Positions 1 through 63,981 of a stretch of DNA of 64,000 bases are shown piece after piece. The number at the start of each line of letters is the position of its first letter. The stretch's first letter is position 1. The notes beneath the pieces were generated by a model that did no database searches, was not told the DNA's origin, and saw only the letters and a program-made list of their open reading frames with translations. This DNA comes from Phalacrocorax aristotelis (Eukaryota; Chordata; Aves; Suliformes; Phalacrocoracidae): NCBI RefSeq assembly GCF_949628215.1, contig NC_134310.1:14579418-14643417 (forward strand). Reading direction: 5' to 3'. Made by a program: the position numbers and the translations under genes.

Positions 1-257
1 ACATGTTTCACATTCATGGATAGCCTGTGCAATAACATCCATGGTCAAGTCCACCCCTCGATCACGAGCCCACCTGTATGTTGCATCTCTCCCTTGATGG
101 CCTGAGGTGTCATGGGCCCACCAAGCTATAAACAGTTCACCCTTATGTTGCCAGTCCAGATCCACCTCAGCCACTTCAATCTTGGCAGCCTGATCCACCT
201 GCTGGTTGTTTCAGTGTTCTTCAGTGGCCCAACTTTTGGGGATATGAGCATCCACAT
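1..257 (-). pseudogene. ERV pol remnant: RNase H end and integrase zinc-binding domain
   Basis: Directly after the calsyntenin tail the same minus-strand frame reads VDAHIPKSWATEEH and stops (TGA near 211). The sequence beyond continues in that frame as an integrase N-terminal domain with the HHCC zinc ligands: HDTSGH (H-X4-H) near 90-75 and CETC at the window edge. Integrase normally follows RNase H in pol, so the order is viral. The catalytic core lies outside the window. Confidence 0.8.
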
Positions 258-3171
258 CATTGCTGTCCAGGGAGTCAGGTGTCTCCGAGTCAGTGCTTTC
301 ATCTTCATTCTCCAGGCCCTCACTAGTTCTACCCTCGCTGCTTTCTGCTGCCCTCTCCTGGCAGTTCTGGTAGGATTCCATTAGGTTGACTATGATGGTG
401 AGGGCTGAGTCATCCCAGAACGTGTCATTCTCTTTGCCTCCAGTGCTTGCTTCTGTGCTCTCTTTCAGCAGCCCCAGGGACCTCTTGCCCCACTCCCCAC
501 CGGTGCAGGGAGTGGATGCGCAGGATGCCAAGGATCACCATGAGTTCCCGGGAGCCCACACACACCACAATGATGACAGTGGCAGCACTGGGGTCCATTG
601 GGTTTTTATTGGTGCTTGCCAAGCTGTGCCCAGATAGCTCTGCGGGTAAATGATGGCCTCGGTGCATGAACTGCTGGGAACTCAGAATATGGTTAGGATG
701 AGCAGCTCAGTTCATGTTGTGGAGGACATTCATCTCAACAGTAAACTCATTGCTAGAGTAGCATCCATTCATCTCAGTGCAGGACAGGTGAAACTTCCTT
801 TCATAAAAGGTAGCGCCATGGTTGATGTGGTGTGAGACCTGGCATAGTATTTCCTTATAAACTGCATCACACCTGTGATGGTCAGGTAGGCAGAGGTTTT
901 AACAAGCTTCAGGCCCCACTGCTGCAGCAGTGCCCCATCCAGGAGCAGATACTCCCTCTCTGGGTCCAAGTCATCTCCTACCAGTGAGATCTCGCAGCCA
1001 TCCAGGTTGTGCACAATCTCATCTGACATTCGTGTGTCTGTCACAGTACCATGCCAATTCTCATCCTTCTTGGCCTCCACCTGGTGAGAAATAGAGCAGG
1101 TGATCTGGAGGTTGGGGAACAGGGGCACCCCATCAGGACCCTCAAAGTCTGATGCAGGATGAGCAAAGTGGGCACCGCCACTCAACAGGATTTGGGGGGC
1201 ATCAGGCTGTAGCACCACAATGTAACCTTCCACATCAGAAATGGAAACACATGACTCTTTACTGAGACACTTGACAGTAGCAGTGAGCCTGAGCAGCCAG
1301 ACTCCAGGGGTAGCAAAGCGCAGGGAATTCATGTAAGCCACATGCTGGATTGCATGGTTGAAGGTTTCCACATCATCACCCTCCAAGGTGAGCAGGGACT
1401 GAGAGGGGTTCACATCCCTTTGCCCAGACTGTTGAAGTCACTGTAATCAAGCCACTCACGGCAGGCATACAGGCATTCAATAACCTCCCAGCTCTCCAAG
1501 CTACCAGGGCACACAGCGAAGCCAGCCAAGTAACCATGGAAGTAGTGGTGTATAGACAGAGGATCTCCTTGTACAGTATCAGTGGAGTTCTCATTTCCTT
1601 TGATTTTCTCTTGTTTTTCTCCTCGGTCCAGCAGGCTCCAATCACGAGCAAGGGTTCCTGCCATGGAGGGTGAATGAGGCCATTGTCATTAATGAGGGCA
1701 GGGTCATAAAAGACACCATCCACGTAGAGCATGACAGTGGGGAACTCCAGGTTGAGGGCATAATGGTGCCATTCATCATCACAGACCTGCTCAAGCTTCC
1801 AGAGGAATTTCACGGGCCTTGCACTTTCCAGCAATGGCCAGTAGAGGAAAGCAAGCTGGCAGCCGTGCACAGCCAGAGAGTAATGCGAGTAGCCATCCTC
1901 GCTCTGCACTGTGCTGCATATCACCATCTCCTCTTCCCACCTGCCTTTGCCAGGCACCATGGCATACTTCATCCATACAGACAGGGTGAAGTGGTCACTC
2001 AGCCCCTCATGGGCATTCAGACCATTCACCACAGGCACCTGGGCAGCCTGGCTGCCATTGAACCAGTAGATAAGGCTGCTGTCCTGGCTGTAGTGCAGAG
2101 CCACACGGTCCAGTTCGCTGTGGGTCTAGGCACTGGCAGCAGGTCAATCTCTCCTGAGGCAGCACCACAGAGTTTGCTTAGTGACTTCTCAGAGTAGTTA
2201 TCCCAGTCACAGCCCTTGGCCACATGGTTTGTCTGCAACTCCACCAATGCCTGGATGTTCCACAGGGGCTCATCACAGGTGTCCAGGTGAATGCTGGGGA
2301 AGAGCATGAGGCTGCCTGCACCCAGGGTACGCTCAATCCTCTTGCTCTGGCCCTACCAGCTGGGCTTGCAGGTGGGTTTCACCTGGATTTCCACTTCAGC
2401 ATCACCAGAAGCCTGCTTCATCCACAGTCATAGGCTGTCACTGTGAATTTGTAGAGATGATCTCCCACTGTACTGCAGCTTCTCTATGTTCTCAGTGGTC
2501 CCGTCCTTGTCAATCAGAAAGGGAATATTGGGGGTCAGGATGTTGTAGTAGCAGATCTGGCTGTACTGTAGCAAGCAGTCTCCATCAATGATCTCCACAC
2601 ACAAGTTGCAGTCATACAGCTTTCCCTCAGTCACTGCCACACGATACAACTTTTCCATAAAAACAGGAGCAAACTCACTCACATCATTTACTTAAACACG
2701 CACTATGGCCTTGTGTGATTTCTTGGTATTTGCTCCATCAGGTCCCTCTCCACAGTCATAAGCCTGGACGGTGAATGTGTGTTCCTTATGTGCTTCACAG
2801 TCCACTGGTTCCTTGGCCCAGATCAGACCCTCACCTATAACTTTATCCAGGACCACAGCTTCAAAAGGTACCCCTGCCCCATGGATCCTGAAGCCACAGA
2901 TTTCACCTGCATAGCACAGTGGAGCATCTTTGTCCAGTACAAACAGTGGTGGGTTGAGCAGGACCATGTTGTAATTCTCCATGATGATGCCCTGATACTC
3001 AGCTTCAATACCAGGTTTGTGCTTGTTTGCTTTGTTGGAGGTGTTGCCAGGCAGCACGGTGCAGAGGAGAAAGGGAACAGTGGCAGCTCAAGGCCAAGGG
3101 TCACCCATAGGAGCAGCAGCAGGTCCCAGCCCACCCAGGGCTGCTGGACAGTGGCAGGCACAACCTTGCTG
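258..3171 (-). pseudogene. CLSTN3: Intronless calsyntenin-3-like retrocopy inside an ERV
   Basis: Calsyntenins are type I synaptic membrane proteins with two cadherin repeats, an LNS/LamG-like domain, one membrane span and an acidic cytoplasmic tail. All parts are present in order on the minus strand with no introns: a leucine-rich signal-like stretch (3130-3060, frame-shifted), first cadherin repeat (3057-2692, NKANKHKPGIEAEYQG, ending at an in-frame TAA at 2692-2694), second cadherin repeat (2691-2430), LNS domain (2307-1412, including CDEPLWNIQA and WHHYALNLEFP), the following ectodomain (1413-769), membrane span (around 560-500) and cytoplasmic tail (WDDSALTIIVN near 425-390). Several frame changes and stops make it non-functional. 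Motifs such as SIHHYFHGYLAGF fit CLSTN3 better than CLSTN1 or CLSTN2. It stops shortly before the normal C-terminus, has no 3'UTR or poly(A), and joins viral pol directly at about 258. Confidence 0.88.
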
Positions 3172-4031
3172 CTTCATCATCCTGTTCTAAACAAGTTGAC
3201 TTCTGCTTCCAAGATTTCTTCTTGTGTATGGGGGCAACTGATACTGACATGGGTTGATACTCTGGTTTGACCACAGTGCCCATCATCAGGGCTGGAGCAA
3301 CCACAGTGCCTGTCACTTTGTCTTTCAATCCAGAGACCTTCTCTTCCCCTGGGGAGCACTGAATACTGTTGAGCAGGGCTCGGTATGCATGGGCCAGGCC
3401 CCAGCATGTTGCAGTTATCTGTGTCTCTCTGGAGTTCCCAGGGTAACAACATACTTTCTCCAAATATTCTACTAGTTTTTCAGGATTCTGCACTTGTTCA
3501 GGGGTGAAACTCCAAAACACTGGGGGTGCCCACTGCCCTAGGTATTTGCCTATGCTATCCCACATACCCTGCCACTCGTAACTATCAAGCCTTGGGGCAG
3601 ATTTCTGGGTGATATTCTTAAGTTGCTTTCTAACCTTAGCCAAAACCAAAACAATATGGCCAAAAACCAACAATAAATATATCTTACCTACCCAAGGATA
3701 CTCAAGATACAAAAAGTTGTGATAAAGGTAGAGACATTCTATAAGAAGGTAGCTAAGGTGCCATTCTGCATTTCCTCCATATAAAATCTGCCAGAGGAGG
3801 TATAATTGCTAATTGACTCCATGAGGTGGTACCCAAAGTACAGTAACAGCTCCAATACAAACCCCAAATACCAGATAAAGCTGAAAACCAGTGTTTGCAT
3901 AACAAACCTCTTAGGCAAAACATCACTAAGCACAGCAGACTAAGCAAACCAACACCAATCTTTAACAGGTACTGCAAAAAGAAGAGCACGGTGCTATGAC
4001 CAGCAGCTGTTATTATCTCAAACCCTCTATA
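3172..4031 (-). pseudogene. ERV leader and 5' gag remnant
   Basis: A minus-strand frame 3712-3101 begins MYLEYPWVGK and contains a gag-like N-terminal segment (WDSIGKYLGQWAPPVFW, then QNPEKLVEYLEKV and a basic KKKSWKQKS stretch near 3200). Its reading then passes without a stop into non-viral sequence at about 3172, the junction with the calsyntenin insert. Upstream, 4076-3739 holds overlapping short frames with hydrophobic stretches (around 3860-3990), so the leader may once have encoded a small membrane-like peptide. No capsid, major homology region or zinc knuckle follows: the rest of gag is absent. The gag identity is recognised from similarity to avian ERV copies and was not tested by search. 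Confidence 0.65.
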
Positions 4032-4048
4032 CCCCACGTTGGGCACCA
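4032..4048 (-). other. tRNA primer-binding site
   Basis: The minus strand reads TGGTGCCCAACGTGGGG eight bases after the LTR end. It differs by one base from the lysine(1,2)-tRNA type site (TGGCGCCCAACGTGGGG) known from betaretroviruses. ERVL elements usually use leucine tRNA, so either the class label or the primer use is unusual here. Confidence 0.7.
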
Positions 4049-4056
4049 AAAGAGAC

Positions 4057-4504
4057 TGTTGGGGTTTAGCCGGCAACTCAGCCCCACACAGCTGCTCACT
4101 CCCTCCCCCACCAGCTGGATGGGGAGAGAATCAGAAAGGTAAAGCTCGTGAGTTGAGATAAGAACAGCTTAATAGTTAAAACAACACCACCACAAAAAGG
4201 AAACCAATGAGAAAGATACTAAACGGGGGGGGGGGGGGGAGGGGGGCAGGCCAGCCAGCCCGCCCACCCCAAACCACAACCACCTGCCCTGTGTGCCAAC
4301 TGCCCCCGTTAATATACTGGTCATGGTGTCACATGGTATGGAATGAACATTCCATTGGCCAGTTGGGGCCAGCTGCCTTGGCTGTGGCCCCACCTCTCCT
4401 GGCCTCTTGCCCACGTGGCAGAGCATGGGAAGCTGGAAAGGTCCTTGACTACTACAGGCACTACAGTGAAGAGAATTAACCATTTCTCAGCCAAAATCAG
4501 CACA
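4057..4504 (-). repeat. 5' LTR of the calsyntenin-carrying ERV
   Basis: On the plus strand it begins TGTTGGGGTTTAGCC and ends CAGCCAAAATCAGCACA, i.e. TG...CA. It belongs to the same family as the solo LTRs at 7696, 12710, 32029, 42264, 45949, 50789 and 52412, but at about 448 bp it is shorter. It contains a pure G run (about 4226-4240) in the strand shown. The adjoining primer-binding site shows that it is a 5' LTR of a minus-strand element. Confidence 0.85.
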
Positions 4505-5496
4505 CAGTGACAAGAAAACTCTTGCATGGATTACGCTGAAGTTTGCAAAAATTGTTTGTGCTAAGTTAACACCTTTTCTTGCAGGAAAACAGATATAGCT
4601 GTGATGAAGCCAAGAGGGTGGGCTACTCCCATGTGTTTCCCATTTCCTAGTCAGCATAAGCTGCAGCAGATACACAGAAAGCAGACAGAAATTACACAGA
4701 GTTTGTTTTAACTTTGATGGTTGTACAGCCAGTTATTGGGACTGCAGCTGTTGAAAAGCTGAAGGCACTTCTCTTCCCATTGCCTGTCAGACAGGTGCTG
4801 ACATCCCAGGGAATCTCACCTGAGAGATTACACACTCATAACACCAGCATTAGCATTTTCTTTCTAAGGTATCATCACCTTAGCAAGAATTCATTAAACC
4901 TGGCAATTCTTAAATATTTCCTGCTGTGCAGAGTACCCACGTCCTTGCATTTCCCCTCATGCCAGGGAACAAGCCATCAGGTCAAGATCCATCTTTCTCC
5001 TTAGGCTACATCTTCTGTGAGAAGCTGCCTGCAAACTTTCTGCTAAGGAAAGCTCGCAGAATTGAGGCCAGAAGCAGCACAGTGAAGTCCCCTCTGGGGG
5101 ACTCTCATGCTCTGGGAAATTGTGGAGGAAGGAATATCTGTGTATTGCATATGCACACAGCAAGGGCTAGACAAGAGGAGTACTTGTCCCAGGGTGCTGC
5201 TCAGGGAAAGTGGAGGGGAAAAATTGGGCCAGAATTACCTCAGAAATTATGTGGGGTGGGCTGTGAGCAACTCATCCCAGCAGCAGTGGCTGCAGGGAGG
5301 GAGCCGGGGAGAGAAGGGCTTTCAGGACCACAGGGCACTGTGTGTCAAGTGTGTGTGTTTCCATAGAAATGCATTCATTTATATCAGCTGGCCCTAGACA
5401 CAGAGTAAGTGCTCTGTGTGAAACACTCCCAACAACACACATCCAAGCATCAAAAGACAGGTCCTCTCTCTCCTCCGCTCACATCCTATAAGCTTA
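4505..5496. other. Intergenic, no gene seen
   Basis: No coding similarity, RNA gene or clear repeat was recognised. Short open frames here have no recognisable domains. Confidence 0.5.
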
Positions 5497-34300: not shown

Positions 34301-35504
34301 GTTATGTGGGTGGGCACTTAGGAGTTAAGTACAGAAAGAAGCATCCTCTTAGGTCTTCATGCAAAGGAAGTGAATCCTTAAAGACTCGATTTTTGGCACA
34401 ACGACTGAGAAAAATATCTCAATACTGCAATGTTGTTTAAGTGTTTAAGAGACAATCAATAATATAACATAAGGGCACCCACACATGGGCTCATAACAGC
34501 CTGAACCTCCATTAAATCACTGTATTCACTAAAGCAGATCACATATTGAGGGATTTAGTCCATGGGAAGTTTAAAGAGCTCAAAATGTGATTTTATTCCA
34601 AATCATGATGAAAAGCTGAAATCTCAGAATGTTTCAGAAGAACACGTTCAATTTCACTCTCCTTGAAGTGTTTCATTCTGCTAGTATCAAAACATTTAAT
34701 TGACTTCAACATTTAATTTACTTGATTAATTTATCTCTGGTAGAGTAGATATAAAATGAAAAATGAAATAGATATTTTAATTTCATAAAAAGAAAATGCA
34801 TTAATAACATTTCCCTGGAAAATTAACATAATACTTCTATTCTGACCTATTTATACTCAGTCTAATCAGTGTCTTGTGATATTAAATAATTCCATGAGAA
34901 ATTTTTCAAAAGCTCTGATAATAATTATCCCCTAAAAGCATTTTAAAAAGCAGGAATTCAGCCAGGAATAACAGCTCAGCCTGGCAGCCCAGGAAATTCC
35001 TCCTTCTGTCCTGCCCAAAAACCTTATCAATAGGTAGCTTTGGCAATACTAACCACTGCTGGTGTGAAGACAACAATTAACAATTATAATCACAAAATTG
35101 CTTTAAAGAAACCTCATCCTTTTGCCGCTTTGCTGGGAAGAGCCTGTATAACCTCTCTACAGTAGCTTCATACACCCATTAACTGATATTTATATCATGA
35201 CATGCTTTTCTTTCCCTTGATTTTGACAGGGCTTATTCAATATTGAAAGATGTGCCAGAGTGCTGCCAAGCATCAGCAGACACCTACAGAGATACATACA
35301 TATCTCATTTCTTTTTACCCAAATGAGTTTCCATGATGATCTAAATCATTCCAAATTCTCCCTGATTTCTGAGGGTCCTGGGTGCACTCTGAAGTAATGG
35401 CTGGGGCAGCTTGCATGTGTCTAACATTTTTGAGCCACGAATGGATAAACTTCCATTAACGACAACTGACGTGTGACAAAGTCTTTTCTCTATTTTCCAA
35501 ACAG
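34301..35504 (+). other. GDNF: GDNF intron, 3' end
   Basis: Non-coding, AT-rich; ends in a polypyrimidine tract and AG acceptor at 35503-35504. Confidence 0.7.
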
Positions 35505-35989
35505 CTAATACGCCAGAGGATTATCCAGATCAGTTTGATGAGGTAGTGGACTTTATTCAAGCCACCATTAAAAGACTGAGGAGGTCGCCGGATAAACAGA
35601 CTCCGATTTTTTCTAGGCGGGAGAGGAACCAGCAAAATGCGCCCACAAACATAGAGAATTCCAGCAAAAAGGGAAGGAAGAATCAAAAGGGCAAAAATCG
35701 AGGATGTGTCTTAACAGAAATACATTTAAATGTGACTGACTTGGATTTGGGATATGAAACCAAAGAAGAGCTAATTTTCCGGTATTGCAGTGGATCTTGT
35801 GATGCAGCCGAGACCACGTATGACAAAATTTTAAAAAATTTAACCAGAAAGAAAAAACTAGTCACTGACAAAGTAAGGCAAGCTTGTTGCAGACCCACAG
35901 CCTTTGATGATGACCTGTCCTTTTTGGATGATAACCTCATTTACCACATACTGAAAAAACATTCTGCAAAAAGATGTGGATGTGTCTGA
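35505..35989 (+). CDS. GDNF: GDNF, second coding exon (proregion end and mature factor)
   Basis: Starts after the acceptor TATTTTCCAAACAG (ends 35504) and runs to TGA at 35987-35989. The exon encodes the end of the proregion, a furin-type cleavage site RLRR followed by SPDKQ (about 35571-35597), a basic heparin-binding-like stretch (KKGRKNQKGKNRG) and the cystine-knot domain. All seven cysteines of the GDNF family are present: one in RGCVL, two in RYCSGSC, two in QACCRP, two in RCGCV. Two N-glycosylation sequons, NVT and NLT, are retained. No break is seen, so the gene is predicted functional. It is the only intact host coding gene in the window. Neighbouring DNA is retroviral or non-coding, and all ERV remnants in its intron lie antisense to it. 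Confidence 0.96.
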
Positions 35990-50788: not shown

Positions 50789-51366
50789 TGGCCTGGTGTC
50801 AGCTGGGATAGAGTTAAATTTCTTCGTAGTAGCTAGTATGAGACTATGTTTTGGATTTTTGCTGGAAACAGTGGTGATAATGTGGAGATGTTTCAGTTGT
50901 TGCTAAGTAGCACTTATACTGGTCAAGGACTTTTTCAGCTCCCCATGCTCTGCCGGGTGCACAAAAAGCTGGGAGGGGACACAGCCAGGACAGCTGACCC
51001 AAACTGACCAGCGGGATATTCCATACCATATGACGTCATGCTCAGTATATAAAGCTGGGGGAAGAAGAAGGAAGGGGGGACATTGGGAGTGATGGCATTT
51101 GTCTTCCCAAGTAACTGTTACGTGTGATGGAGCCCTGCTTTCCTGGAGGTGGCTGAACACCTGCCTGCCCATGGGAAGTAGTGAATTAATTCCTTGTTTT
51201 GCTTTGCTTCCGCGCGCAGCTTTTGCTTTACCTATTAAACTGTCTTTATCTCAACCCATGAGTTGCCTCACTTTTACTCTTCCAATTCTCTCTCCCATCC
51301 CACTGCAGGGGGAGTGAGCGAGCGGCTGCGTGGTGCTTGGTTGCTGACTGGGGCTAAACCACGACA
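50789..51366 (+). repeat. LTR in left arm of inverted repeat
   Basis: A 578-bp element, TGGCCTGGTGTCAGCTGGG...CTAAACCACGACA. Flanks are AATAC on the left and AAGAC on the right, a 4/5 match to a TSD. In sense it has a perfect cAMP-response element TGACGTCA (51031-51038), a TATATAAA box (51046-51053) and a later ATTAAA. Confidence 0.88.
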
Positions 51367-52411
51367 AAGACTATCTACAGTGCTTGTACCAAGGCACTTT
51401 ATTAAAGAGCATGCAGAAAGAATAATTACATTTAAAAGCCAACTCATGTTATGATCCCCCAAACCACAGTTCTGCTAATCCCCCCCATCCCCATAGTGGA
51501 CATTTGAATCATGCTGCACTGTTTGGGAGCCAGGGTTTTTTTAATTAAAAGCAATTGGAATCTCAAACATAGATCCCTCTGCCTCAGTGGGACAGCTAGA
51601 CTGTCTTCCTTGTTCCTAAGGCACAATCAGCATTCCCGTTTGCTTTGCTCAGCGTTCCTGAGTGGTTGGGCTTTGGTTTCATTTTTAATCTGCCAATTAA
51701 ATGTGATATTTTAACAGGGAATTTTACAGTCAATTTTTACCATGTGGAGAATTTTTATTGTTAATTACCAGGGTGTCATTACACAGAGTAGATGCTTAGG
51801 GGAGGGAAGCTGTACATAGCTAGTTGTCCCCTGCAGCACAAACATTCAGCTCCCAACATTAACATGACTTATTTGACTCCTACTAACACCACAATCAAAA
51901 ATATTGTGCCAGTAGCACAGAGTGAAATGGAGTTCAGGAGCTGGCACCTCTGCTAATGGAAATGAATGCTAAGGAGTCACCATTACTTAAGCCAGCAGAG
52001 GACGTTGCCTTTGGTTTTAGAATGCTTGTTTTTCCAGAAATTGTCACAAAAAACACTAGTTTTGTTTTAATTAGATGGAAAGCCAGGCCAGAGTTCTGTC
52101 TACATAGCATAGGGATACAGAATGGAAGAAGTGAGTCTGTGCCAGCGCAACATGAGCATATCTCTGAGGTGAGCTAGTTGATTACACAAGGGACAGGGAC
52201 TGGTTGACAGCTCTCCCAGCTGGAGAACAGCTCTGGGCAGCAGCAAAAGAGAGTGTGCTGAAAGAGAAAGTCAAATGTCCACTATGGGGATGGGGGGGAT
52301 TAGCAGAACTGTGGTTTGGGGGATCATAACATGAGTTGGCTTTTAAATGTAATTATTCTTTCTGCATGCTCTTTAATAAAGTGCCTTGGTACAAGCACTG
52401 TAGATAGTCTT

Positions 52412-52988
52412 TGTCGTGGTTTAGCCCCAGTCAGCAACCAAGCACCACGCAGCCGCTCGCTCACTCCCCCCTGGTGGGACAGGGGAGAGAATTGGAAGAG
52501 TAAAAGTGAGGCAACTCATGGGTTGAGATAAGGACCGTTTAATAGGTAAAGCAAAAGCTGTGTGCGGAAGCAAAGCAAAACAAGGAATTAATTCACTACT
52601 TCCCATGGGCAGGCAGGTGTTCAGCCACCTCCAGGAAAGCAGGGCTCCATCACACGTAACAGTTACTTGGGAAGACAAATGCCATCACTCCCAATGTCCC
52701 CCCTTCCTTCTTCTTCCCCCAGCTTTATATACTGAGCATGACGTCATATGGTATGGAATATCCCGCTGGTCAGTTTGGGTCAGCTGTCCTGGCTGTGTCC
52801 CCTCCCAGCTTTTTGTGCACCCGGCAGAGCATGGGGAGCTGAAAAAGTCCTTGACCAGTATAAGTGCTACTTAGCAACAACTGAAACATCTCCACATTAT
52901 CACCACTGTTTCCAGCAAAAATCCAAAACATAGTCTCATACTAGCTACTACGAAGAAATTTAACTCTATCCCAGCTGAAACCAGGACA
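52412..52988 (-). repeat. LTR in right arm of inverted repeat
   Basis: A 577-bp copy in opposite orientation, also carrying TGACGTCA (52739-52746). Flanks (GTCTT and CCTAC) do not match, so no TSD is present, suggesting it arrived by duplication or rearrangement rather than by its own insertion. Confidence 0.88.
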
Positions 52989-53118
52989 CCTACAAAAAGG
53001 ACATTTTATAGAGCCTCAACCAAAAAGATTATTACCTTGTGAAGAGCAAAATCTTTCCTTGCATTTGGAAATGCAGTAGCTTTCATCTTCATTAAAACCT
53101 TCTGTGATCTTTCTTGCT

Positions 53119-53368
53119 TGTAGCTGTACGCTTCTACGGGAGGACTTATCTTGGGCCGCATATCTCCGGGACACAGGGCTCTACCCACCCTGGGGACAGT
53201 GATGCACAGACATCAATATGATGGATACAAAATGTCCGTTTATTTGGCTGCGTCACACGCTTATATAGCTCTTGCGCTTCCTGTTCCTGCCACTCCTATG
53301 GGGAGGAGTCTATCTTTCCGTCACATCCCGTGATCTTCCGGTCGCCGATCCCTGTCTATTCCCCTACA
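53119..53368 (-). repeat. Solo LTR, betaretrovirus-like family 2, 6-bp TSD (CTTGCT)
   Basis: A 250-bp TGTAGCTGTACGC...TTCCCCTACA element flanked by CTTGCT at 53113-53118 and 53369-53374. It differs at about four positions from the 3' LTR at 60545-60794. In minus sense it has a TATATAAG box and AATAAA. Confidence 0.93.
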
Positions 53369-53539
53369 CTTGCTTTACAGAATGATTTTACTATGTGTTT
53401 AGAAAACATTATGGAAACTTTGAAAGTTGGCTCATTAATTTTTTTATATCCATGGGCTGTAATGCATGGGTGTGCATCAACTTCAACCCCCACCTTCATT
53501 CTACAACAAGCCTGGGGTGCCCATCTGCCAGCCCCACCC
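53369..53539. other. Short host spacer between two ERV insertions
   Basis: About 170 bp of unique sequence; its last six bases (CCACCC, 53534-53539) are the TSD of the next provirus. Confidence 0.7.
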
Positions 53540-54073
53540 TGCTGACGCGGAAGTCACGGACACCACACACGACCAATATGATCAAGCAAATGCCAGTTTA
53601 TTACAGACATAGCGCAGTTAATATAGCTCTGCAACCACCTTATCACACACAAGCCCCTACTGTTTATTATATACAAGCCTATTATTAGTTGGTCAGCACG
53701 GCCTTGGGCTTTATCCCAAGGATAGCTACTAGCAGCATCGGCAACTCCCGCCTTGTTTTGCTACGCTGTAATGAGACACTCCTGCCAGTGGTATGGGATG
53801 TGGCCCCTGTTGACAGAGTAGCACCTGTGGCCAATCTTGGAATGCAACTTATCAGGAAGACGTAATGCCATCCCACACGTTCCCACAGTAAGCTCGTACC
53901 ATGCCGCTTTGTAAGCCTTGGGAAATACAAAATCACAGCTGTTATTAATAGCTACATACATTGGTTTTAACTCGCAACATCCTTGAGGCTTTCTTGTTCC
54001 CAGGCCGATTAAGTCCGCGCAGTCTGAGCCTGGATTGTTCACTACGTGTCCTTTGCTTTCCAGATATCCCACA
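53540..54073 (-). repeat. 3' LTR of the young provirus
   Basis: Plus strand TGCTGACGCGGAAGTC...GATATCCCACA, 534 bp. In minus sense it has a TATA-like GCTATATTAAC and an AATAAA (near 53595). Nearly identical to 59794-60327. Confidence 0.95.
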
Positions 54074-54380
54074 AATCCCCTTTTTGTTTTTGAGCAATCC
54101 AGGCTCCAGTCATCATGCGCTCTACTGCTTTCATGAAACACTTAAAAACACATCCTAATATTAGCACACTTAATAATAATCCTAATAATAAGACAAGCCC
54201 GTGGGTAATTAAATCTCTTACCCATCCTGAGACACCTAACCCAGTTAACCATGAATGAAGGCCTAGAGAGCTAGCTTTTAACTCATTGGTTAGTTTCTTA
54301 AGTCGATCTAGTTGCTGGTAAATTGAATTGGAGTTATCTGTAAGGTTCATACGAAATCCATGAGTGGCCGAGATCAACAA
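54042..54380 (-). pseudogene. env remnant: transmembrane subunit C-terminus
   Basis: A 112-residue frame starts right after the pol stop. It holds a heptad-like segment (IYQQLDRLKKLTNELKAS), a membrane span (VLLLGLLLSVLILGCVF) and a short tail running into the LTR. The surface subunit, fusion peptide and most of the transmembrane subunit are absent, so the deletion junction must lie at about 54380-54408. The frame has no stop, but the product could not act as an envelope protein. The methionine start is not supported; it is probably internal. Confidence 0.8.
54074..54090 (-). other. Polypurine tract
   Basis: Minus strand AAAACAAAAAGGGGATT ends directly at the 3' LTR start, the usual site of plus-strand priming. 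Confidence 0.75.
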
Positions 54381-54407
54381 TGGAGAGGAATGATAGAAGG
54401 AAATGCA

Positions 54408-57005
54408 TCAGGGCAACGACCGTTGCTGTCCCAGATCTTCTCTCCATGGTTTCACCCAGCGGCTAGGCACCCACCGTGGACCTTCATCTGTCAAAACACA
54501 AACATAACCTCGACCGGTCATTTTTACTTCTGTGGGACCCTTCCATTCCCCAGTTTTTAAATCTCGATACTGTACCTTTACCGAGTCAGCTTTTTGTAGT
54601 CCAGATTGCAATGACAGATGGTGAATTACAATTGGAGGAGAGTCACGGTCTCCTGTTAACCTCAAATAGTTTAGAACGTAAATCGCTTTTGCAAGACGTT
54701 CAGAAGGAGCCAGTTCTCCCCCTTTTTGCTTTTGCAACAGTGATTTCAAGGTAGCATGCGCACGTTCCACAATGGCCTGTCCTGTAGGGGAGTGGGGTAT
54801 GCCAGTTACTCTGCAAATGCCCCACAATTGGCAAAAGCGTTCGAATGTTTGTGAAATATATGCAGGGCCATTATCTGTTTTTATTTCCTGAGGAGCTCCT
54901 AAAGCAGCAATGGCCGCATGCATATGCTTCACAACATGTTTGGCTGATTCTCCTGTTTGAGCAATGGCCCACAATGCATGGGAATAAGTATCAATGCTGA
55001 CATGCACATATTTTTGACGCCCAAATTCTGTAACATGAGTGACGTCCATTTGCCATAACTGCAAGGCTCCTAAGCCCCGAGGATTTACCCCAAGACCCAG
55101 ACCAAATCCCGGTTTTTGGCAAGCCGGACATGATTGCACGATGCCTCGGGCATCTGACAGCTTTAAGTTAAACTGTTTTGCTAACACCTTTGCGGATTGA
55201 TGTAAAAATTCATGAGACAAAGTGGCTTGCTCAAACAGGTTGACATTGTGATTTTTCCAAGCAGTAGCAACTAGCTTGTCTGCTACGTCATTTCTGATAG
55301 ACAAGCCTTGATTAAACTGATGGCTGCGAATGTGTGTCACAAAATAGGGTTTTCTGCGTTGATTCAACAGAAACAAAAGCTGCATCAGTAACATATATAA
55401 GGTGTTATTTTTTAGAGTTTTGATCATGGTGCGTTCCAAGCGCTGTACCGTTCCCACCACATAGAGTGAGTCTGAGACTACATTTAAAGGGTCGTCAGGC
55501 CAGCGTTGAAAAACCCACAAGACTGCTCTCAGTTCGAGTGTCTGCAAAGAGTCTGTGGCGTTCCCTGTAAGAAGCTGATGATGCCACTGGTTGTTGCTGT
55601 GCCAAGCAATAGCAGCTCGTTTTGATTTCCTTCCAGCATCGGTGAATACTGTGAGTCCTTCCACTGGTACTTCTGACCTGTAAGGGATTTCCTCAAATTC
55701 CTGGTTTTGCAATAGTGATAAAATTTTTGCTGATGGATAATTGTTAGTAACTGTACCTGGATACTTGGCAAGAGCGATTTGGATTGTCTCTGAGGTCGCT
55801 AAGAGCCAGTCCAAATAGATCTGTGCTATAGGCATAAATATCGTTGCAGGCTCTTGTCCCGATAACTCCCAAATCCTTCTTCTGCCTTTAATAATTATGT
55901 TAGCTAACAGCTTGACCCGTGAACAAACTGTATTTTTGGGTTGATAAGATAAGAATACCCATTCCAGAATGTTGATGTGCTGTTCGTCTAATTGCATTAT
56001 GAGTCCTACTAAATGCTTTCGTTTGGGTGATGAATTAACAATCAAAAACTGCAAAGGCAAAGCAGAAATTTTTCTCTGTACAGTAGCTGTCAGAATTTTT
56101 TCCACAAGCTGATCTAACACCTGTTTCTGTTCTACTGATAGACTTCGTCGCTCGTTAGCTTTGGTCGTGGTTCCTAAGAGAGGCATTAAAGGAGCTAAAT
56201 CATCATTAGTGATTCCACTAACAGCTCTTACCCACTGAATGTCTCCCATCAGTTTTTGAACATCTGAGAGGGTCTTAATGTCTGTTTTAAGTTCGATTTT
56301 CTGTGGTCGGACTGCACTCCTGGTAATGGTCCAGCCCAAATACTGCCATGGACCTCGGCGCTGCACCTTTTCTGGGGCTATTTTAAGTCCTTTTGGCTCT
56401 AAGGTTTCTACTAACTTTTGTAATATTCCTTCCGAATCCATCTTTTCACCAGCAATCAATATGTCATCCATATAGTGAAAAATTAGGAAGGATAGATGTT
56501 GCCTTCGGAATGGCTGTAGAGCCCATGCTACAAAATTTTGACACAATGTAGGCGAGTTCTTCATGCCCTGAGGTAACACCACCCATTGATACCTTTTCGC
56601 TGGCTCTTGTTTGTTAATTGTCGGTACCGTAAATGCAAATTTCTCTGCATCGTCTGGATGCAAGGGAATAGTAAAGAAACAATCTTTTAAGTCAATGATA
56701 AGCAAATCCCAGTTCTCAGGGATCATTACAGGGGAAGGTAATCCTGGCTGTAGTGACCCCATGTCCTGCATAACAGCGTTTACTGCTCGTAAATCATGCA
56801 GTAGTCGCCATCTGCCTGATTTTTTCGGACTGGTAAAAACGGGAGTGTTCCAAGGGCTTGTAGAAGGCACGATATGACCTGCTTCTAATTGTTCGTTTAC
56901 TAAGTCCTGTAAAATTTGCAGCCTCTCCTGTTTTAGCGGCCACTGGTCTACCCACACTGGCGTCGTCGTGGTCCAGGTGAGTTTTAAAATGGGCTGCTTA
57001 ACCAT
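54408..57005 (-). CDS. pol: pol: reverse transcriptase, RNase H, integrase
   Basis: One open frame of 865 codons, probably entered by -1 frameshift from pro rather than from the methionine at 57005. The reverse transcriptase has its first catalytic Asp at 105 (IIDLKDCF), LPQG at 144-147 and YMDD at 178-181. RNase H residues are D456 (FTDAG), E491, D512 and D573. The integrase zinc domain has H598, H602, C626 and C629, and the catalytic triad is D654, D711 and E747, the last two separated by 35 residues as usual. All catalytic residues are present and no stop interrupts the frame. A betaretrovirus-like (class II) origin is inferred from these motifs and the gene order. The frame ends 28 bp before the env remnant. 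Confidence 0.95.
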   Translation of the reverse strand: MVKQPILKLTWTTTTPVWVDQWPLKQERLQILQDLVNEQLEAGHIVPSTSPWNTPVFTSPKKSGRWRLLHDLRAVNAVMQDMGSLQPGLPSPVMIPENWDLLIIDLKDCFFTIPLHPDDAEKFAFTVPTINKQEPAKRYQWVVLPQGMKNSPTLCQNFVAWALQPFRRQHLSFLIFHYMDDILIAGEKMDSEGILQKLVETLEPKGLKIAPEKVQRRGPWQYLGWTITRSAVRPQKIELKTDIKTLSDVQKLMGDIQWVRAVSGITNDDLAPLMPLLGTTTKANERRSLSVEQKQVLDQLVEKILTATVQRKISALPLQFLIVNSSPKRKHLVGLIMQLDEQHINILEWVFLSYQPKNTVCSRVKLLANIIIKGRRRIWELSGQEPATIFMPIAQIYLDWLLATSETIQIALAKYPGTVTNNYPSAKILSLLQNQEFEEIPYRSEVPVEGLTVFTDAGRKSKRAAIAWHSNNQWHHQLLTGNATDSLQTLELRAVLWVFQRWPDDPLNVVSDSLYVVGTVQRLERTMIKTLKNNTLYMLLMQLLFLLNQRRKPYFVTHIRSHQFNQGLSIRNDVADKLVATAWKNHNVNLFEQATLSHEFLHQSAKVLAKQFNLKLSDARGIVQSCPACQKPGFGLGLGVNPRGLGALQLWQMDVTHVTEFGRQKYVHVSIDTYSHALWAIAQTGESAKHVVKHMHAAIAALGAPQEIKTDNGPAYISQTFERFCQLWGICRVTGIPHSPTGQAIVERAHATLKSLLQKQKGGELAPSERLAKAIYVLNYLRLTGDRDSPPIVIHHLSLQSGLQKADSVKVQYRDLKTGEWKGPTEVKMTGRGYVCVLTDEGPRWVPSRWVKPWREDLGQQRSLP

Positions 57006-57013
57006 GGCCGCTC

Positions 57014-57802
57014 CTAAAAATGCTGGGTTACAAGCTGGGCTCCCATTTGGGACAATATGTCTCGACCTACAAGAGCTACAGGCAGGTGCATTACATACGG
57101 CCTTGTGGTAACTGTCGTACCATCCTCAAAGCTAAATGACACTGGAGTTTTACTGATCATTGTGCATTGTGCACCTCCAACCCCCGCTACATTGGTAGCT
57201 GCCGGTACCAGTGGCCAGTTGTAGGGCCACTTTGTTGCGGGGATGATGGTTACATCTGCCCCTGTGTCAATTAGCATCGACAGCACGCAGGATTGCCTGT
57301 TTTGGTGTGTAATTGTCACCTTTTCTTCTGGTTTTCCCCTGGCGATATCGATCGCTAATAACACATTTGGCACACCAGTGGACCCAAAACCTCCATGGCC
57401 ACGCACGACCGATTGTGCTTTAGGAACACAGGCATGAAATGGTATTAATTGAGCTATTTTTGATTGTGCTGGTATGGTGAGCGGCGGCGTTAGGGTGTAT
57501 ACCATAATTTTTATGGTTCCGCAGTAATCTGCATCAATGAGCCCTGGTACTATAAATATACCTTTTTGAGACATTGAGGAACGGCCTATAAGCAATGCAC
57601 TTAGCCCATGCCCTAGTGGTCCCTGTTGGTCGGAATCAATTAATTGAACCCCTGATGTTGTTAAAGTCACGTCTACTGCTGTTGCCAGGTCCACTCCGGT
57701 GCTGCCGATTGTGGCAGCGGCGCAGCGGTCCAAGCACCCTGCACTTGTGTCATCACGTGTGGGTGTGGCGCGCTCTGCGCCATGTTTCCCAATCTCTGAC
57801 AT
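57014..57802 (-). CDS. pro: pro: dUTPase and aspartic protease
   Basis: The frame overlaps the end of gag by about 130 bp and lies in the -1 frame. It is entered at the slippery site 57784-57790, so the methionine at 57802 is not the true start. The N-terminal two thirds hold a dUTPase with the typical GLIDADYCG motif (about residues 100-108); such a domain within pro is a betaretroviral trait. The protease follows with the catalytic LIDTGAD (near 57280) and a C-terminal GRDILSQMG. It ends QHF at 57014 in a T-rich CATTTTTAG, where the pol frame opens in -1, a plausible second shift site. No internal stop. Confidence 0.92.
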   Translation of the reverse strand: MSEIGKHGAERATPTRDDTSAGCLDRCAAATIGSTGVDLATAVDVTLTTSGVQLIDSDQQGPLGHGLSALLIGRSSMSQKGIFIVPGLIDADYCGTIKIMVYTLTPPLTIPAQSKIAQLIPFHACVPKAQSVVRGHGGFGSTGVPNVLLAIDIARGKPEEKVTITHQNRQSCVLSMLIDTGADVTIIPATKWPYNWPLVPAATNVAGVGGAQCTMISKTPVSFSFEDGTTVTTRPYVMHLPVALVGRDILSQMGAQLVTQHF

Positions 57803-59628
57803 TCCCGAGTGTCATGGGTACCTTTCTTGCAATTTGTACACCACTTGTTTCCTCGCCCCTCAGTGCTAACTAGACTCCTGCATTCTTTCCGAACATGACC
57901 TAGCTTTCCGCAATTAAAGCACTTTTTGTCCCTTTTTCCTCCCTGGTTTCTTGAGATCAATGGCTTAACTGCTGCACCCACAGCTGTGGCCATAACGGTA
58001 GCCTTTTCTTGTTCTAACATTCGCTCAGCGGCCTCTAACAACTGCCCTGCGTTAGATCCCCTCGGCAACACGCTGAGTGCTCTTTTAGTCTTTTCATTAG
58101 CATTATCAAAAGCAAACATATCTAGGAATTTTACTTTCATGCTCTCGTCCATATCTGGGTGAGCCATAATTGCAGCATGCAAGCAATCGATAAACTTCCC
58201 ATACGACTCTGTGGGTCCCTGCTTTACTGTGGTAAAGGCAGGTCTGGTATTCTCATCATGCACATTAGTAAGGGCTCTATAAGCTAACTCTTGGCTCAAT
58301 TGCAACACCTCGGTAGCACATTGTGCTTGCCACTCAGGTCGCATAAAAGGCCCTGCTCCTATTAGCATCTGAGCCTGTACACCAAACAGAGGATCACCCT
58401 GCTGTCGAGGTATTGAAGCTGCCCTATCGCAGGCAGTCTGCCAACGTTGGAGAAATTGTAGCTGCTGCGAGGCTGGCAACAGCATCCGGACAATCATCCT
58501 AGAGTCATAAGGAGTTAATAACTGTGAGGAAAAAATGTGTTGTAACACAGACTGAGTATATGGTGATTTTAACCCATACTGAGTAACAGCATTTTTGGCC
58601 TCCTTCAACACTTTCCAACCCAACGCTTCCCACACCCCTCTCCCATTATTATCTGCTATAACTGGAAATGCCAGTGGCAAAAACTGCCCTTCTATCATGG
58701 CATCTCGAATCACCCCTTTCCATCGCATGGATAGGTCTCTTGCCCCCCCTGCCAACGACCCTTGCCCAAATACCGCTGACGCTGGTGGCGCTGGCATCGG
58801 TGCAGGAGCACTGGTCCCACCCGGTGTTTCATTTGGGACGAATGGGTTAGACCCTGATGGTCCGGGGCATGGCACAGACAGAGGAGCTGGTAACTTTTCT
58901 GGCGGCGCCCCTAGGCGAGCCTCTAAAGTTTCCAGCCTTTTTACCAATTCCCGCAATTGCGCATCCCCCAAACCGTTTGCTCCCCCCTCCTCCTCTTCGC
59001 AACGTGACGGTGGAGAAGAAGGTCACACGGGAGGGTAAAGTGAAGTGGTCGGCGCCGGTGAAGAGGGTCGGGGTGGTGGATCGGCGTTGTCACAAATCTG
59101 AGGACTGTCTGACTGTGTTGCATCTGGTGGTGGTAGAAAATCTTCTGCAGCTTTTCCCTCTGGTGCTGGTACATGTGTGGCGGCGTGAGCTGTGGCTACA
59201 GTTTCTGCTGGGATTCGGACCCCCCCCGCAGCATGAGCCGGGGTTGCGGCAGGGATCGTTGGACCCTGGAACAGCATGCCAGTTGCAGAGGCAGACCCGT
59301 CGGCTGGAGTCAAAGCCGCAAATGCAGACACCACAGCTTGCCGTTCAGCCTTCATGCTTTTCAATGTTTCATTAATCAACCTCCACACAGTAGAGAATTT
59401 GCTCGCCTCCCTGGATCCTTTACTTATTTCATCCCACAGTTCTGCCCCTATTTTTTCCCATATTGATACATCAAAGACGGCTCCAGCTGTGGGGATCAAG
59501 TCTTTTCCCTTTGCCCAAAGCAGCAAAGCCTTCAGGGTAGACGAGTCATAACTCAGCCCTCTCATTGAGAGGATATGTTGGAGGAGCTTAACCACTGCTG
59601 ACTCTTCTTTTGTCATGTTGGACCCCAT
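57673..59628 (-). pseudogene. gag: gag, complete but with one in-frame stop
   Basis: ATG at 59626-59628 gives MGSN with Gly2, as for N-myristoylated matrix. An upstream in-frame ATG at 59667 is less likely. The matrix part and a proline-rich linker (PPPDATQSDSP, PPPRPSSPAP) run to a TGA at 59023-59025. The same frame continues beyond it through capsid, with a major homology region (QGPTESYGKFIDCLHAAI near 58215), and nucleocapsid with two CCHC zinc knuckles (CFNCGKLGHVRKEC and CTNCKKGTHDTREC). The frame closes at 57673. About 651 codons in all, normal for the class. The stop lies where a CGA codon could have decayed at CpG; no other break is seen. Confidence 0.9.
57784..57790 (-). promoter_or_regulatory. 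gag-pro ribosomal frameshift heptamer G GGA AAC
   Basis: Minus strand GGGAAAC sits in the overlap with the gag frame reading TTG GGA AAC; a -1 slip gives GGG AAA CAT, exactly the pro frame. The same heptamer is used by primate betaretroviruses. A downstream pseudoknot was not modelled. Confidence 0.85.
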
Positions 59629-59773
59629 CTCCTCCCCGGCCGCCCGCCTGATCAGGGTGAGTGCCAATCTTTTGCGCTAGCGTCTTCCCGAGTGCCAGGG
59701 AAGCACTCACCTACGGCCAGCTTCCGCACCCTCTATCTTCGGCTCCGTCGGAAAATCCAACTCCGATCCGGGG

Positions 59774-59791
59774 GTCCCTGTTCGGGCGCCA
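59774..59791 (-). other. Primer-binding site, tRNA-Lys3 type
   Basis: Plus strand GTCCCTGTTCGGGCGCCA, the complement of TGGCGCCCGAACAGGGAC, a perfect 18-base match to the lysine-3 tRNA site. Two bases separate it from the 5' LTR. Confidence 0.93.
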
Positions 59792-59793
59792 CT

Positions 59794-60327
59794 TGCTGAC
59801 GCGGAAGTCACGGACACCACACACGACCAATATGATCAAGCAAATGCCAGTTTATTACAGACACAGCGCAGTTAATATAGCTCTGCAACCACCTTATCAC
59901 ACACAAGCCCCTACTGTTTATTATATACAAGCCTATTATTAGTTGGTCAGCACGGCCTTGGGCTTTATCCCAAGGATAGCTACTAGCAGCATCGGCAACT
60001 CCTGCCTTGTTTTGCTATGCTGTAACGAGACACTCCTGCCAGTGGTATGGGATGTGGCCCCTGTTGACAGAGTAGCACCTGTGGCCAATCTTGGAATGCA
60101 ACTTATCAGGAAGACGTAATGCCATCCCACACGTTCCCACAGTAAGCTCGTACCATGCCGCTTTGTAAGCCTTGGGAAATACAAAATCACAGCTGTTATT
60201 AATAGCTACATACATTGGTTTTAACTCGCAACATCCTTGAGGCTTTCTTGTTCCCAGGCCGATTAAGTCCGCGCAGTCTGAGCCTGGATTGTTCACTACG
60301 TGTCCTTTGCTTTCCAGATATCCCACA
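59794..60327 (-). repeat. 5' LTR of the young provirus
   Basis: 534 bp, same ends as the 3' LTR. The differences noted are at 59868 (C versus T), 60003, 60018 and 60027. Confidence 0.95.
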
Positions 60328-60477
60328 CCACCCCTCCTGAAAAGGTTTCCCAAAAAAAGTGTTATTGCAATCACATGAGCCTGAATTTCAGAGCTGAGGC
60401 TAACTAAAAATGGGTGCCTCAGCACTGGAGAAAACCTCACCAAGACGACAATTTTTAGCACTGTGTCAGTCTAATTA
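60328..60477. other. Short host spacer
   Basis: Begins with the TSD copy CCACCC and leads into a pyrimidine microsatellite. No gene. Confidence 0.6.
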
Positions 60478-60544
60478 TCTCTTCCTTCCTTCCTTCTTTC
60501 TTTCTTTTTCTTTCCTTCCTTCTTTCTTTCCTTCTTTATTTCCT
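60478..60544 (+). repeat. CTTT/CTTC pyrimidine microsatellite
   Basis: About 65 bp of TTCC and TTTC units directly abutting the next LTR, so that provirus inserted at or beside this tract. Confidence 0.85.
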
Positions 60545-60794
60545 TGTAGCTGTACGCTTCTACGGGAGAACTTATCTTGGGCCGCATATCTCCGGGACAC
60601 AGGGCTCAACCCACCCTGGGGACAGTGATGCACAGACATCAATATGATGGATACAAAATGTCCGTTTATTTAGCTGCGTCACACGCTTATATAGCTCTTG
60701 CGCTTCCTGTTCCTGCCACTCCTATGGGGAGGAGTCTATCTTTCCGTCACATCCCGTGATCTTCCGGTCGCCAATCCCTGTCTATTCCCCTACA
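60545..60794 (-). repeat. 3' LTR of the second provirus
   Basis: 250 bp, TGTAGCTGTACGC...TTCCCCTACA. Minus-sense TATATAAG (near 60687-60694) and AATAAA (near 60668) are promoter and polyadenylation signals at LTR spacing. Confidence 0.92.
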
Positions 60795-61135: not shown

Positions 61136-62422
61136 TCAGAGAGGGATTATTCTTTGTACATCCTTGCACAGTTCTGCTTTCACACACTTTGCAGGCACCC
61201 ACTCTATGCGCCCTTCATTCTCAACCGCAGCGTAGCCCCTCCCCAGGCATCTCAGTTTCCATCCTCTCTCCCATTGCTCACTGCCTGGGAACCTTACTCG
61301 TACCTGCGGATAGCGCTCGCCTGCTTGAGCTTTGCCAAAGTGCTTCTCCACTGCTGTAACTTGCTCCTGCCCGCGTATAAAATGATTAAGCGAATATAAT
61401 GCACACATTAAAATAGTTTGCTGAGCTGCTATGGGTATAGCTCCCTTATATCCCTCCCCCTCCCCAAGCTGTATTATTTTTGCTTTCAAGGTGCGATGAG
61501 CGCGTTCAACTATTGCCTGCCCTGTGCTATTGTAAGCAATGCCGTGTTTTAATACAATATTCCAAGCTTTACACCATTCTTCGGTACTTCGAGCCCGAAA
61601 GCATGGTCCATTGTCTGTTTTTATCTCGGTAGGCTTTCCAAGCCACGCCATTACCGTGGTCCAATGCGCAGTCAAATGCGTTGCGGTCTGCTTCCGATGT
61701 TGAGTAACCATGATGACTCCACTATATGTATCAATTGTAATTGCAAGTTGCCGTCCGGGGGCCAACTGTGGACATTCAGTAAAGTCAGTCTGCCAGATAG
61801 CATTTGCTTCCAGTCCTCGAGGGTTGACTCCTGCCTCCCACAATGGCGAGTGCTGACAGTAAGGACAGGTGGCTACCACTTCTCTTGCTGCTCTTATTGA
61901 GATGCCACACTCCTTTGCCAAGGCTTTAGCACCCAGGTGCAGTTTTTCATGCAGTTTCTTTGCCTCCGTCAATGTCCAGACTCCCGCGGCTGCCTCATCA
62001 GCCATGCGATTCCCCTCAATCAGTGGTCCAGGCCCCATCTGATGACTGCGAATGTGAATTACTGTCACAGTTGCTCCTCGCTGCGATAAAGCAACCTCTA
62101 GCATCAAGGCAATTTCCGTGTGTGGTACACCCTCTCGTTTCATGGACATGACTAGTTTATACACATATAAGGAGTCCGTGCACACATTTATATGCCGATC
62201 TATATCCTTTCACAGGGCCATCTCTAGTGGTTTCGCCTCCAGCCACTGCACACTTTTACCCTGCTCTTCATACGCCTGGCACATCCAACCATTCTCTTCT
62301 TTCCACACTACCGCCGCTCTGTTCGTCTTCGAGGAAGCGTCTGTGAAATATGTTGGTCCTGGGTGAGGGGCATCCAAAACTCTACTATCCACACTCAAAT
62401 CCACCACTTTGTCTCGGCCCAC
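61136..62422 (-). pseudogene. pol: pol of the second provirus: RNase H and integrase
   Basis: RNase H begins in 62422-62210 (YFTDASSKTNRAA) and, after a stop near 62207-62210, continues in the same frame at 62185. The longest piece, 62185-61136 (349 residues), carries the RNase H end (HIRSHQMGPG), the integrase zinc ligands (LHEKLHLG and CPYC) and the triad segments WQTDFTE, TDNGPCF and GQAIVERAH. The integrase part itself is open to a stop at 61136. Sequence is clearly related to, but distinct from, the pol at 54408-57005. Confidence 0.85.
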
Positions 62423-63856
62423 CTCTGTACCGTGCCTGTGACGATTTTCCCTGGGTATGAGTATACTGCCAATTGTATATCCTCTTCACTCTCTACCACC
62501 TTCCGCCATTTCTCCCCATTCCACGGCACTGTCAGCTTATCTGGCTCCTTCCCAAAGATTCCCTTGCTTTCCCGTCGCAGACGCCAAATCATTCCCCCGG
62601 CTACCTTGACTTTTGTGGAGAACGCATCCTTGGGAACCTTCTGATATACCCATCGCAGTGGTTTTTCTTCCCCTGTCCGTATTTGATATAGCAATCCTAA
62701 TCCTCCACCGGCGGTCAGAATCCAACCTGCAATTAATTCCTCCTGAGGGTCCCACCGCCATACTCCTTCCTTTTGCATTCAACGTTCTATCATCTGCAAC
62801 TGCTGGACTGCCTCAGGGTCTAAACTCCTGGGCTCCCATGGGTCGGTCCCTTTCAGCAATGCATAGAAAGGTTGCATCTCCTCACCGGTGACGCGCACGA
62901 ATGTCCGCAACCACTGCAGTGCTCCTACCAGCTTCTGTACATCGTGTAAATTTTTAACCTTAGGTGTAAGTTTAATGGGCTGAGCTTGTATGGAATCCCC
63001 TTGTATTCTAGCACCCAGAAATCCACACACTGGTCCTCGCTGTACCTTTGCCTCAGCTATCTTGAGGCCCTGTCCCACAAGGCCCCTTTGGGTGTCTGAA
63101 AAGACTTGTTCACACAACGCCTCGGTGGGCGCAGCTATGAGGACGTCATCCATGTAGTGGATCATGTAGATTCTCTCCTGATACTGTTGCCTTACTTGCT
63201 GCAATGCAGAAGCCACATCCCTCTGGCAGATCGCTGGAGAGTTTTTCATCCCCTGCGGAAGTACTGCCCACTGCCATCTACTACCTGGTTCTGCGCGGTT
63301 CACCGCGGGCAGAGTAAAGGCAAATCTCTTCCTATCATCTGGATGTAGCGGAATGCTGAAGAAGCAGTTTTTGATATCTAAAACAATGACCTTGCCATCC
63401 TTTCAGGACAGCACTCAGATCTGGTAGGCCAGGTTGGAGAGGCCCCATGTCCTCCATCTGCTGATTTACTGCTCTAAGGTCATGCAGCATCCTCCATTGG
63501 TTTTTATCTTTCTTTTTTATAGCAAATATAGGGGTGTTCCACGGGCTCGTCGAGGGCTCTAGGTGCCCTGCTTCGTGCTCTCGTTTTACTATAGCTCTTA
63601 CAGCCTCTGTTTTCTCTGTTGTCAGGGGCCACTGCTCCACCCAGACGGGCTCTTTGGTTTTCCACACTAACTTGTGGTGACGAAGCCCCTCTGAGGCAGT
63701 GGCCCTTATGCTAAATTTTTCAACCCGATCCCCATCTGGGCAAGGGCGTCTCGCCCTAACAAGGGGCTTGCTACCCCATCTGCTACTAGTATGGTCACTA
63801 CGGCTGTGAGGAGCTTCCCTGCCTCCTCGTCCATGACTTCGAGTTTCACAGGGCAA
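62395..63856 (-). pseudogene. pol: pol of the second provirus: broken reverse transcriptase
   Basis: The N-terminal part lies in 63856-63335 ([28 protein letters not shown]). A frameshift near 63400-63370, just before the first catalytic aspartate region, moves the frame to 63303-62779, which has LPQGMKNSP and YMDD (within IHYMDDVLIAAP). An in-frame stop lies at 62779-62781, and the connection domain follows at 62778-62395 before another frameshift. It cannot make a full enzyme. Confidence 0.85.
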
Positions 63857-63981
63857 GTACTAGTCCTCGTCTGTTGTTCTCCTCCCACCCCTATTATACG
63901 CTTTCCCATGGCAAGGGGCCAAGTTGGTGGCCACCGTTCGAGTGGCATCACTGTGACATCTGCCCCGGTATCCACTAACAT
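63706..63981 (-). pseudogene. pro: pro of the second provirus: protease segment
   Basis: The open frame, running from the window edge, has the catalytic LVDTGADVTVMP, a flap-like GVGGEQQT and a C-terminal GRDALAQMG. It overlaps the pol frame by about 150 bp, a normal pro-pol arrangement. The upstream part is outside the window; the segment itself shows no break, but the provirus as a whole is defective. Confidence 0.85.

Follow-up and report, generated by a model that had tools for sequence, protein, structure and literature searches.

Layout of a chimeric provirus on contig C35

The window analysed here is a stretch of 64,000 nucleotides from Phalacrocorax aristotelis (C35:14579418-14643417), where C35, C36, C1 and C7 are contigs of the bird's own genome assembly (1.28 Gb, 352 contigs). 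Positions 1-4504 hold most of the length of an endogenous retrovirus (ERV) of 6,126 bp, which lies on the minus strand at C35:14577796-14583921 and contains an intron-free copy of the host's nerve-adhesion gene calsyntenin-3 (CLSTN3). Read along that strand, the order is 5' long terminal repeat (LTR), leader, gag, CLSTN3 copy, RNase H tail with integrase, and 3' LTR. An earlier sequence-only reading of the window had placed a nearly complete, intronless CLSTN3 between the 5' part of gag and the RNase H/integrase boundary, and this was confirmed by the CLSTN and gag matches and by joins at 255-257 and 3164. The 3' LTR, which that reading had proposed to seek beyond window position 1, is present there: the element runs 1.6 kb further, and this additional DNA comprises integrase sequence, a polypurine tract and the 3' LTR. 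The parts of the provirus and the evidence for each are listed below, in window positions unless a contig is given (UTR, untranslated region).

4505..4509, no strand: right copy of the target-site duplication, CAGTG; a single CAGTG stands at the matching point of C36
4057..4504, minus strand: 5' LTR of the chimera; aligns with the 3' LTR (L029 6379-6838) and with family LTRs
4032..4048, minus strand: primer-binding-site-like stretch; also present in L037, in a comparison of the leader with three family copies
3164..4030, minus strand: 5' part of gag, cut short by the insert and with an approximate upstream limit; protein homologues and own-genome matches
3162..3169, minus strand: 5' join, microhomology; GCAGGGCC in the parental 5' UTR and in four of five family copies, decayed in the chimera
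250..3163, minus strand: intron-free CLSTN3 copy, a pseudogene; CLSTN domains, DNA match to the parent and alignment to the spliced parent
249..255, minus strand: 3' join, microhomology GTGGATG; parental coding sequence and three of the four family copies compared
1..255, minus strand: tail of RNase H and first part of integrase (zinc-binding); PF17921 below its cut-off, four family copies matching to 255-257
C35:14577796-14578255, outside the window, minus strand: 3' LTR; alignment to the 5' LTR
C35:14577791-14577795, outside the window: left copy of the target-site duplication, CAGCG; comparison with C36 and boundary letters

The CLSTN_C domain was matched in two minus-strand open reading frames (ORFs), with E=7.5e-60 and 2.5e-16, and two further matches in the CLSTN region lay below the curated cut-offs (CLSTN_C, 3.2e-5; Laminin_G_3, 1.1e-5). 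The integrase zinc-binding domain (Pfam PF17921) was found at window 1-210 with E=5e-4, below its cut-off. For gag (about 3164-4030), 148 homologous proteins were obtained, and the species named among the best 120 were stork (most of them), ibis, hawks and crane. Single CLSTN ORFs, used as queries in three solved-structure searches, matched nothing at 1e-3, a viral-contig search returned seven pattern matches, none of them confirmed as a relative, and nothing was found by transfer RNA (tRNA) and Rfam scans.

ERVs of class III (ERVL-like) have a 5-bp target-site duplication, no env and a reverse transcriptase nearest to that of foamy viruses. The duplication here is of 5 bp, and the best solved-structure match of pol from the family copy L037 was Pr125Pol, presumably a foamy virus pol, with RT/RNase H p80 entries close behind. 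The element is apparently env-less, as judged from ORF lists alone, no search having been aimed at env. The primer-site-like stretch resembles what we take to be a tRNA-Lys site, which would not be typical for this class.

The CLSTN3 copy, its joins and the integration site

With window 240-3160 as query, a DNA search of the bird's genome gave eight candidates, all of them scored, and 20 matches. One is the chimeric locus itself, 18 lie at C1:132901801-132916488, and the last is a paralogue exon on C7 (71%). The C1 matches represent the intact parent, whose existence with introns the sequence-only reading had asked to verify. It has 18 exons, and its splicing removes 17 GT-AG introns and leaves an open frame of 984 residues. 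The protein is 88-95% identical to bird calsyntenin-3, and its closest named relatives are birds (best 120 of 1,306 matches in both cases). A protein search with one ORF returned 38 matches, the best being a rodent protein with 84% identity over 61% of the query and the others covering 13-39%.

All 17 introns are missing from the copy. It extends from about 40 nt 5' of the parental start codon, within the 5' UTR, to 14 codons before the stop, and with about 2.9 kb it represents nearly the whole coding sequence of 2.95 kb. At the insert there is no 3' UTR, no poly(A) and no duplication of its own, as had been stated before; the copy ends within the coding sequence and meets RNase H directly, reading in frame into the RNase H tail, where a stop comes soon after. 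Copy and parent differ at 187 of 2,867 coding sites (6.5%), with 69/953, 50/958 and 68/956 differences at codon positions 1, 2 and 3 (7.2, 5.2 and 7.1%), and the most diverged exon is exon 1 (22/100). The copy is a pseudogene, since it carries four in-frame stops and ten insertions or deletions and the differences are spread over the codon positions; on the same grounds a functional retrogene was rejected.

The joins were compared with five family copies (L034-L038) out of the 39 other gag matches listed for the own genome, which together with the chimera are the best 40 of 2,082 candidates, ranked by likeness to the chimera. These 39 matches begin at window 3160-3177, mostly at 3164. In L034, L036, L037 and L038 the similarity from the 3' LTR side ends at window 255-257 and restarts at 3164, and the 3,162-3,205 bp of viral sequence between both points are absent from the chimera, in which CLSTN3 (2.9 kb) occupies this space of 3.16-3.21 kb. 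Hence the claim that the intervening viral sequence is gone was upheld. The missing gag-pol part was also looked for beside the insert and not found; in four of the five family copies it fills the space held here by CLSTN3, and in L037 it includes matches to RVT_1 (reverse transcriptase) and RNase H. The host gene thus stands in place of viral replication genes, in the transducing-retrovirus layout recognised by the sequence-only reading. Further LTRs of the same family are visible inside or beside L036, and in L037 an LTR abuts a second integrase fragment.

Viral and parental sequence overlap at both joins. At the 5' join, the 8 nt GCAGGGCC are common to the parental 5' UTR and four of the five family copies; the parental transcript and these four copies each contain them a single time. 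At the 3' join, the 7 nt GTGGATG are shared by the parental coding sequence and three of the four family copies compared; this motif occurs twice in the parental transcript, once in each of the three copies and not in L034. With random breakpoints in copy and transcript, sharing of 7 nt or more has P ~6e-4, and sharing of 8 nt or more has P 1.5e-4 to 2.0e-4.

Elsewhere in the genome, the sequence to the left of the provirus is matched once, at C36:67977264-67978327, with 78% identity. This counterpart is an empty site, where a single CAGTG leads straight on to right-flank sequence; at the same point C35 shows CAGCG, the provirus and CAGTG. The empty site and the flanking pentanucleotides indicate that the chimera entered as one complementary DNA (cDNA) by integrase-type insertion, the 5-bp duplication surrounding the whole provirus.

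C35 is probably the female-limited W chromosome and C36 the Z. An exon with an open frame at window 35477-35989, which we take from its protein to be GDNF, has a second copy on C36 (94% identity). GDNF is Z-linked in birds, and the two copies are probable gametologs. In addition, C35 is small (31 Mb, versus 79 Mb for C36), and 18 of the 39 other listed gag matches (best 40 of 2,082) lie on C35, P=4e-19 against its 2.45% share of bases, an excess that may be overstated because the list was ranked by likeness to the chimera. The W chromosome as a refuge of ERVs is already on record (PMC8310711).

Origin of the chimera and alternative explanations

We consider that the chimera arose by template switching of reverse transcriptase onto a co-packaged, spliced CLSTN3 messenger RNA (mRNA) and back, followed by integration as one cDNA, with a probability of about 0.88. 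The ERV, apparently without env, would have been expressed in the germ line, and the spliced CLSTN3 mRNA of the host would have been packaged together with viral RNA. During minus-strand synthesis, reverse transcriptase would have begun with the 3' LTR, integrase and the last part of RNase H and would then have switched, at GTGGATG, to a point in the CLSTN3 mRNA 14 codons ahead of the stop. This mRNA would then have been copied through all 18 exons into the 5' UTR, where a second switch, at GCAGGGCC, may have led back into gag, so that the 5' end could be completed. Integrase would have inserted the two-LTR cDNA at a CAGTG site, probably on the W chromosome, and neutral decay would have followed. 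Such a two-switch process accounts for what is observed: the same sense, missing introns, no tail, microhomology at both joins, and outer LTRs with a target duplication.

The features by which LTR-mediated retrocopies are recognised are all seen here: an intron-free copy, element sequence and LTRs on both sides, microsimilarity at the joins and an outer target-site duplication. The flanking LTRs are counted among them although the LTR trees do not support sister LTRs, the empty site on C36 showing a single integration. The poly(A) or 3' UTR with own duplication by which a LINE (long interspersed nuclear element) processed pseudogene is recognised is not found. LTR-element-mediated retroposition, which the sequence-only reading had preferred, is thus supported and mostly holds. 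Outside the low-complexity middle, the two LTRs differ at 32 of 287 sites (11.1%), which agrees (P=0.59) with 12.5%, the value expected from doubling the divergence of the copy at codon positions 1 and 2.

The copy probably left its parent within the host's own lineage, because it has 4 of the 11 residues at which the host CLSTN3 is unique among the 11 birds and one turtle compared; at the other seven sites it has the residue common to the other species. Capture from a distant bird was rejected, since these four of 11 residues are otherwise found only in the host among the 12 species compared.

Several observations weigh against these conclusions. When whole LTRs are compared, the 5' and 3' copies are 19.2% different, which is at least as much as between unrelated members of the family, and a tree of full-length LTRs does not group them. 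They are nearest neighbours only without a low-complexity middle of about 150 bp; this trimming was chosen after the first result was known, and the trimmed tree still leaves them ungrouped. The middle of the 5' LTR (window 4175-4330) is G/C-rich, of low complexity and unlike the 3' LTR, and we take it, without proof, to be a later local change. The two copies of the 5-bp duplication agree at four of five bases. One of the five family copies, L035, is without the RNase H/integrase side and matches the gag and LTR side only, from window 3167, and the joins are known from one locus, no sibling copy showing them twice. Codon position 2 is slightly less changed than positions 1 and 3 (Fisher P=0.045), as is expected under constraint on the parent; weak selection on the copy may also account for it. 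Finally, the four residues shared with the parent may partly be parallel changes, and the comparison set is without a close relative of the host.

An unlikely alternative to template switching at both joins is read-through capture, with a provirus just upstream of CLSTN3, deletion of its 3' part at a microhomology, a spliced read-through transcript and a single template switch for the 3' end. The 5' join does lie in exon 1, close to the 5' end of the gene, end-joining deletions also leave microhomology, and read-through is the believed route for oncogenes according to PMC4997597. However, the 20 kb around the parent (about 3 kb of them upstream) hold just one 23-bp match to the ERV, although the provirus in question may lie further off, may have disappeared or may never have reached fixation.

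A LINE-made processed pseudogene that entered a pre-existing provirus, and whose neighbouring gag-pol sequence was deleted afterwards, would also be intron-free, but this origin is extremely improbable and was rejected: the insert has no poly(A), 3' UTR or own duplication, its joins show 8 and 7 nt of microhomology between virus and mRNA, it lies in sense orientation, and the replaced viral span nearly equals it in size. Moreover, retrocopies are few in chicken (78 in one survey), a paucity attributed to CR1 in PMC3136929. There is likewise hardly any chance that an ERV copy and the CLSTN3 gene were fused in the assembly. C35 is repeat-dense, and the judgement was made from assembled sequence rather than reads, but the insert lacks the introns of the parent, C36 provides an empty counterpart, and the provirus is flanked by a target-site duplication; this reading, too, was rejected. 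An error at the joins, which the sequence-only reading had named as an objection, is also unlikely because the copy is 6.5% diverged, with its four stops and ten insertions or deletions.

Known captures, mobility and neighbouring features

Selected tumour viruses are the best-known retroviruses to have captured host genes, and the acutely transducing ones are transmitted with a helper virus and transform cells. Co-packaging of host RNA and non-homologous recombination are reviewed in PMC4997597. Acutely transducing retroviruses resemble the chimera in that a host coding sequence replaces replication genes and the cis elements are kept. The chimera differs from them in being a single old germ-line copy, known from sequence alone, of CLSTN3, which is not a known oncogene. 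Two crocodilian ERV groups also captured host mRNAs, as reported in PMC4299795, namely KIT-ligand in CrocERV29 and nectin3 in CrocERV31, where this immunoglobulin-superfamily protein replaced a viral gene. Both form lineages of many copies, whose ORFs stand instead of env or beside it and are under purifying selection, whereas the chimera was found as one decayed copy in place of much of gag-pol. LTR-mediated retroposition, chicken included, was reported by Tan et al. 2016 as described in the review PMC5408686, where, as proposed here, an mRNA is copied into LTR-element cDNA by a template switch at microsimilarity, with LTRs on both sides. In contrast to those cases, the chimera has nearly the whole 2.95-kb coding sequence of an 18-exon gene, its joins could be set against provirus copies and a living parent, and its empty site is preserved on a related chromosome.

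Host-mRNA capture by an ERV is thus an already known process, of which the CLSTN3 chimera is a further case; no capture of a calsyntenin was found in a literature search on calsyntenin with ERVs, retrocopies or birds. The chimera seems to be an unselected capture in the germ line. It can be followed at the level of single bases, one genome holding its parent, its viral relatives, the two joins and the empty site of integration, and with C35 and C36 as the probable W and Z there is a built-in control for dating and counting. Because retrocopies are few in chicken, chimeras made by ERVs offer birds a route to new genes. A rather doubtful extension is that this ERV family repeatedly copied germ-line mRNAs and that the non-recombining W keeps chimeras lost elsewhere, as an archive of ERV-made retrogenes; one capture has been seen for the family, and no scan for others was made.

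The sequence-only reading expected sibling copies if the chimera had ever been mobile. Neither the DNA search with window 240-3160 nor the protein search with one ORF revealed a sibling chimera, and mobility beyond the founding integration is therefore unproven. A helper might have moved the chimera, since the leader, the primer-site-like stretch, the polypurine tract and both LTRs are kept; no second copy was found.

Other elements lie further along the window. A second, young-looking ERV occupies 53114-60794 on the minus strand, with outer repeats (53114-53368 and 60540-60794) that are 98.0% identical and long gag- and pol-like ORFs of 449 and 905 residues, labelled from reading, without a search. 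A 542-bp piece of its 3' part is repeated at 59794-60335, upstream of gag, with 98.7% identity. Two LTR-like stretches at 50789-51507 and 52271-52988 are inverted to each other, 98.3% identical and 763 bp apart, and pol-like ORFs of another ERV are present at 61136-63859, close to the window end. The segment 16001-18000 is CpG-rich (66.6% GC, 195 CpG in 2 kb) and is possibly a promoter island.

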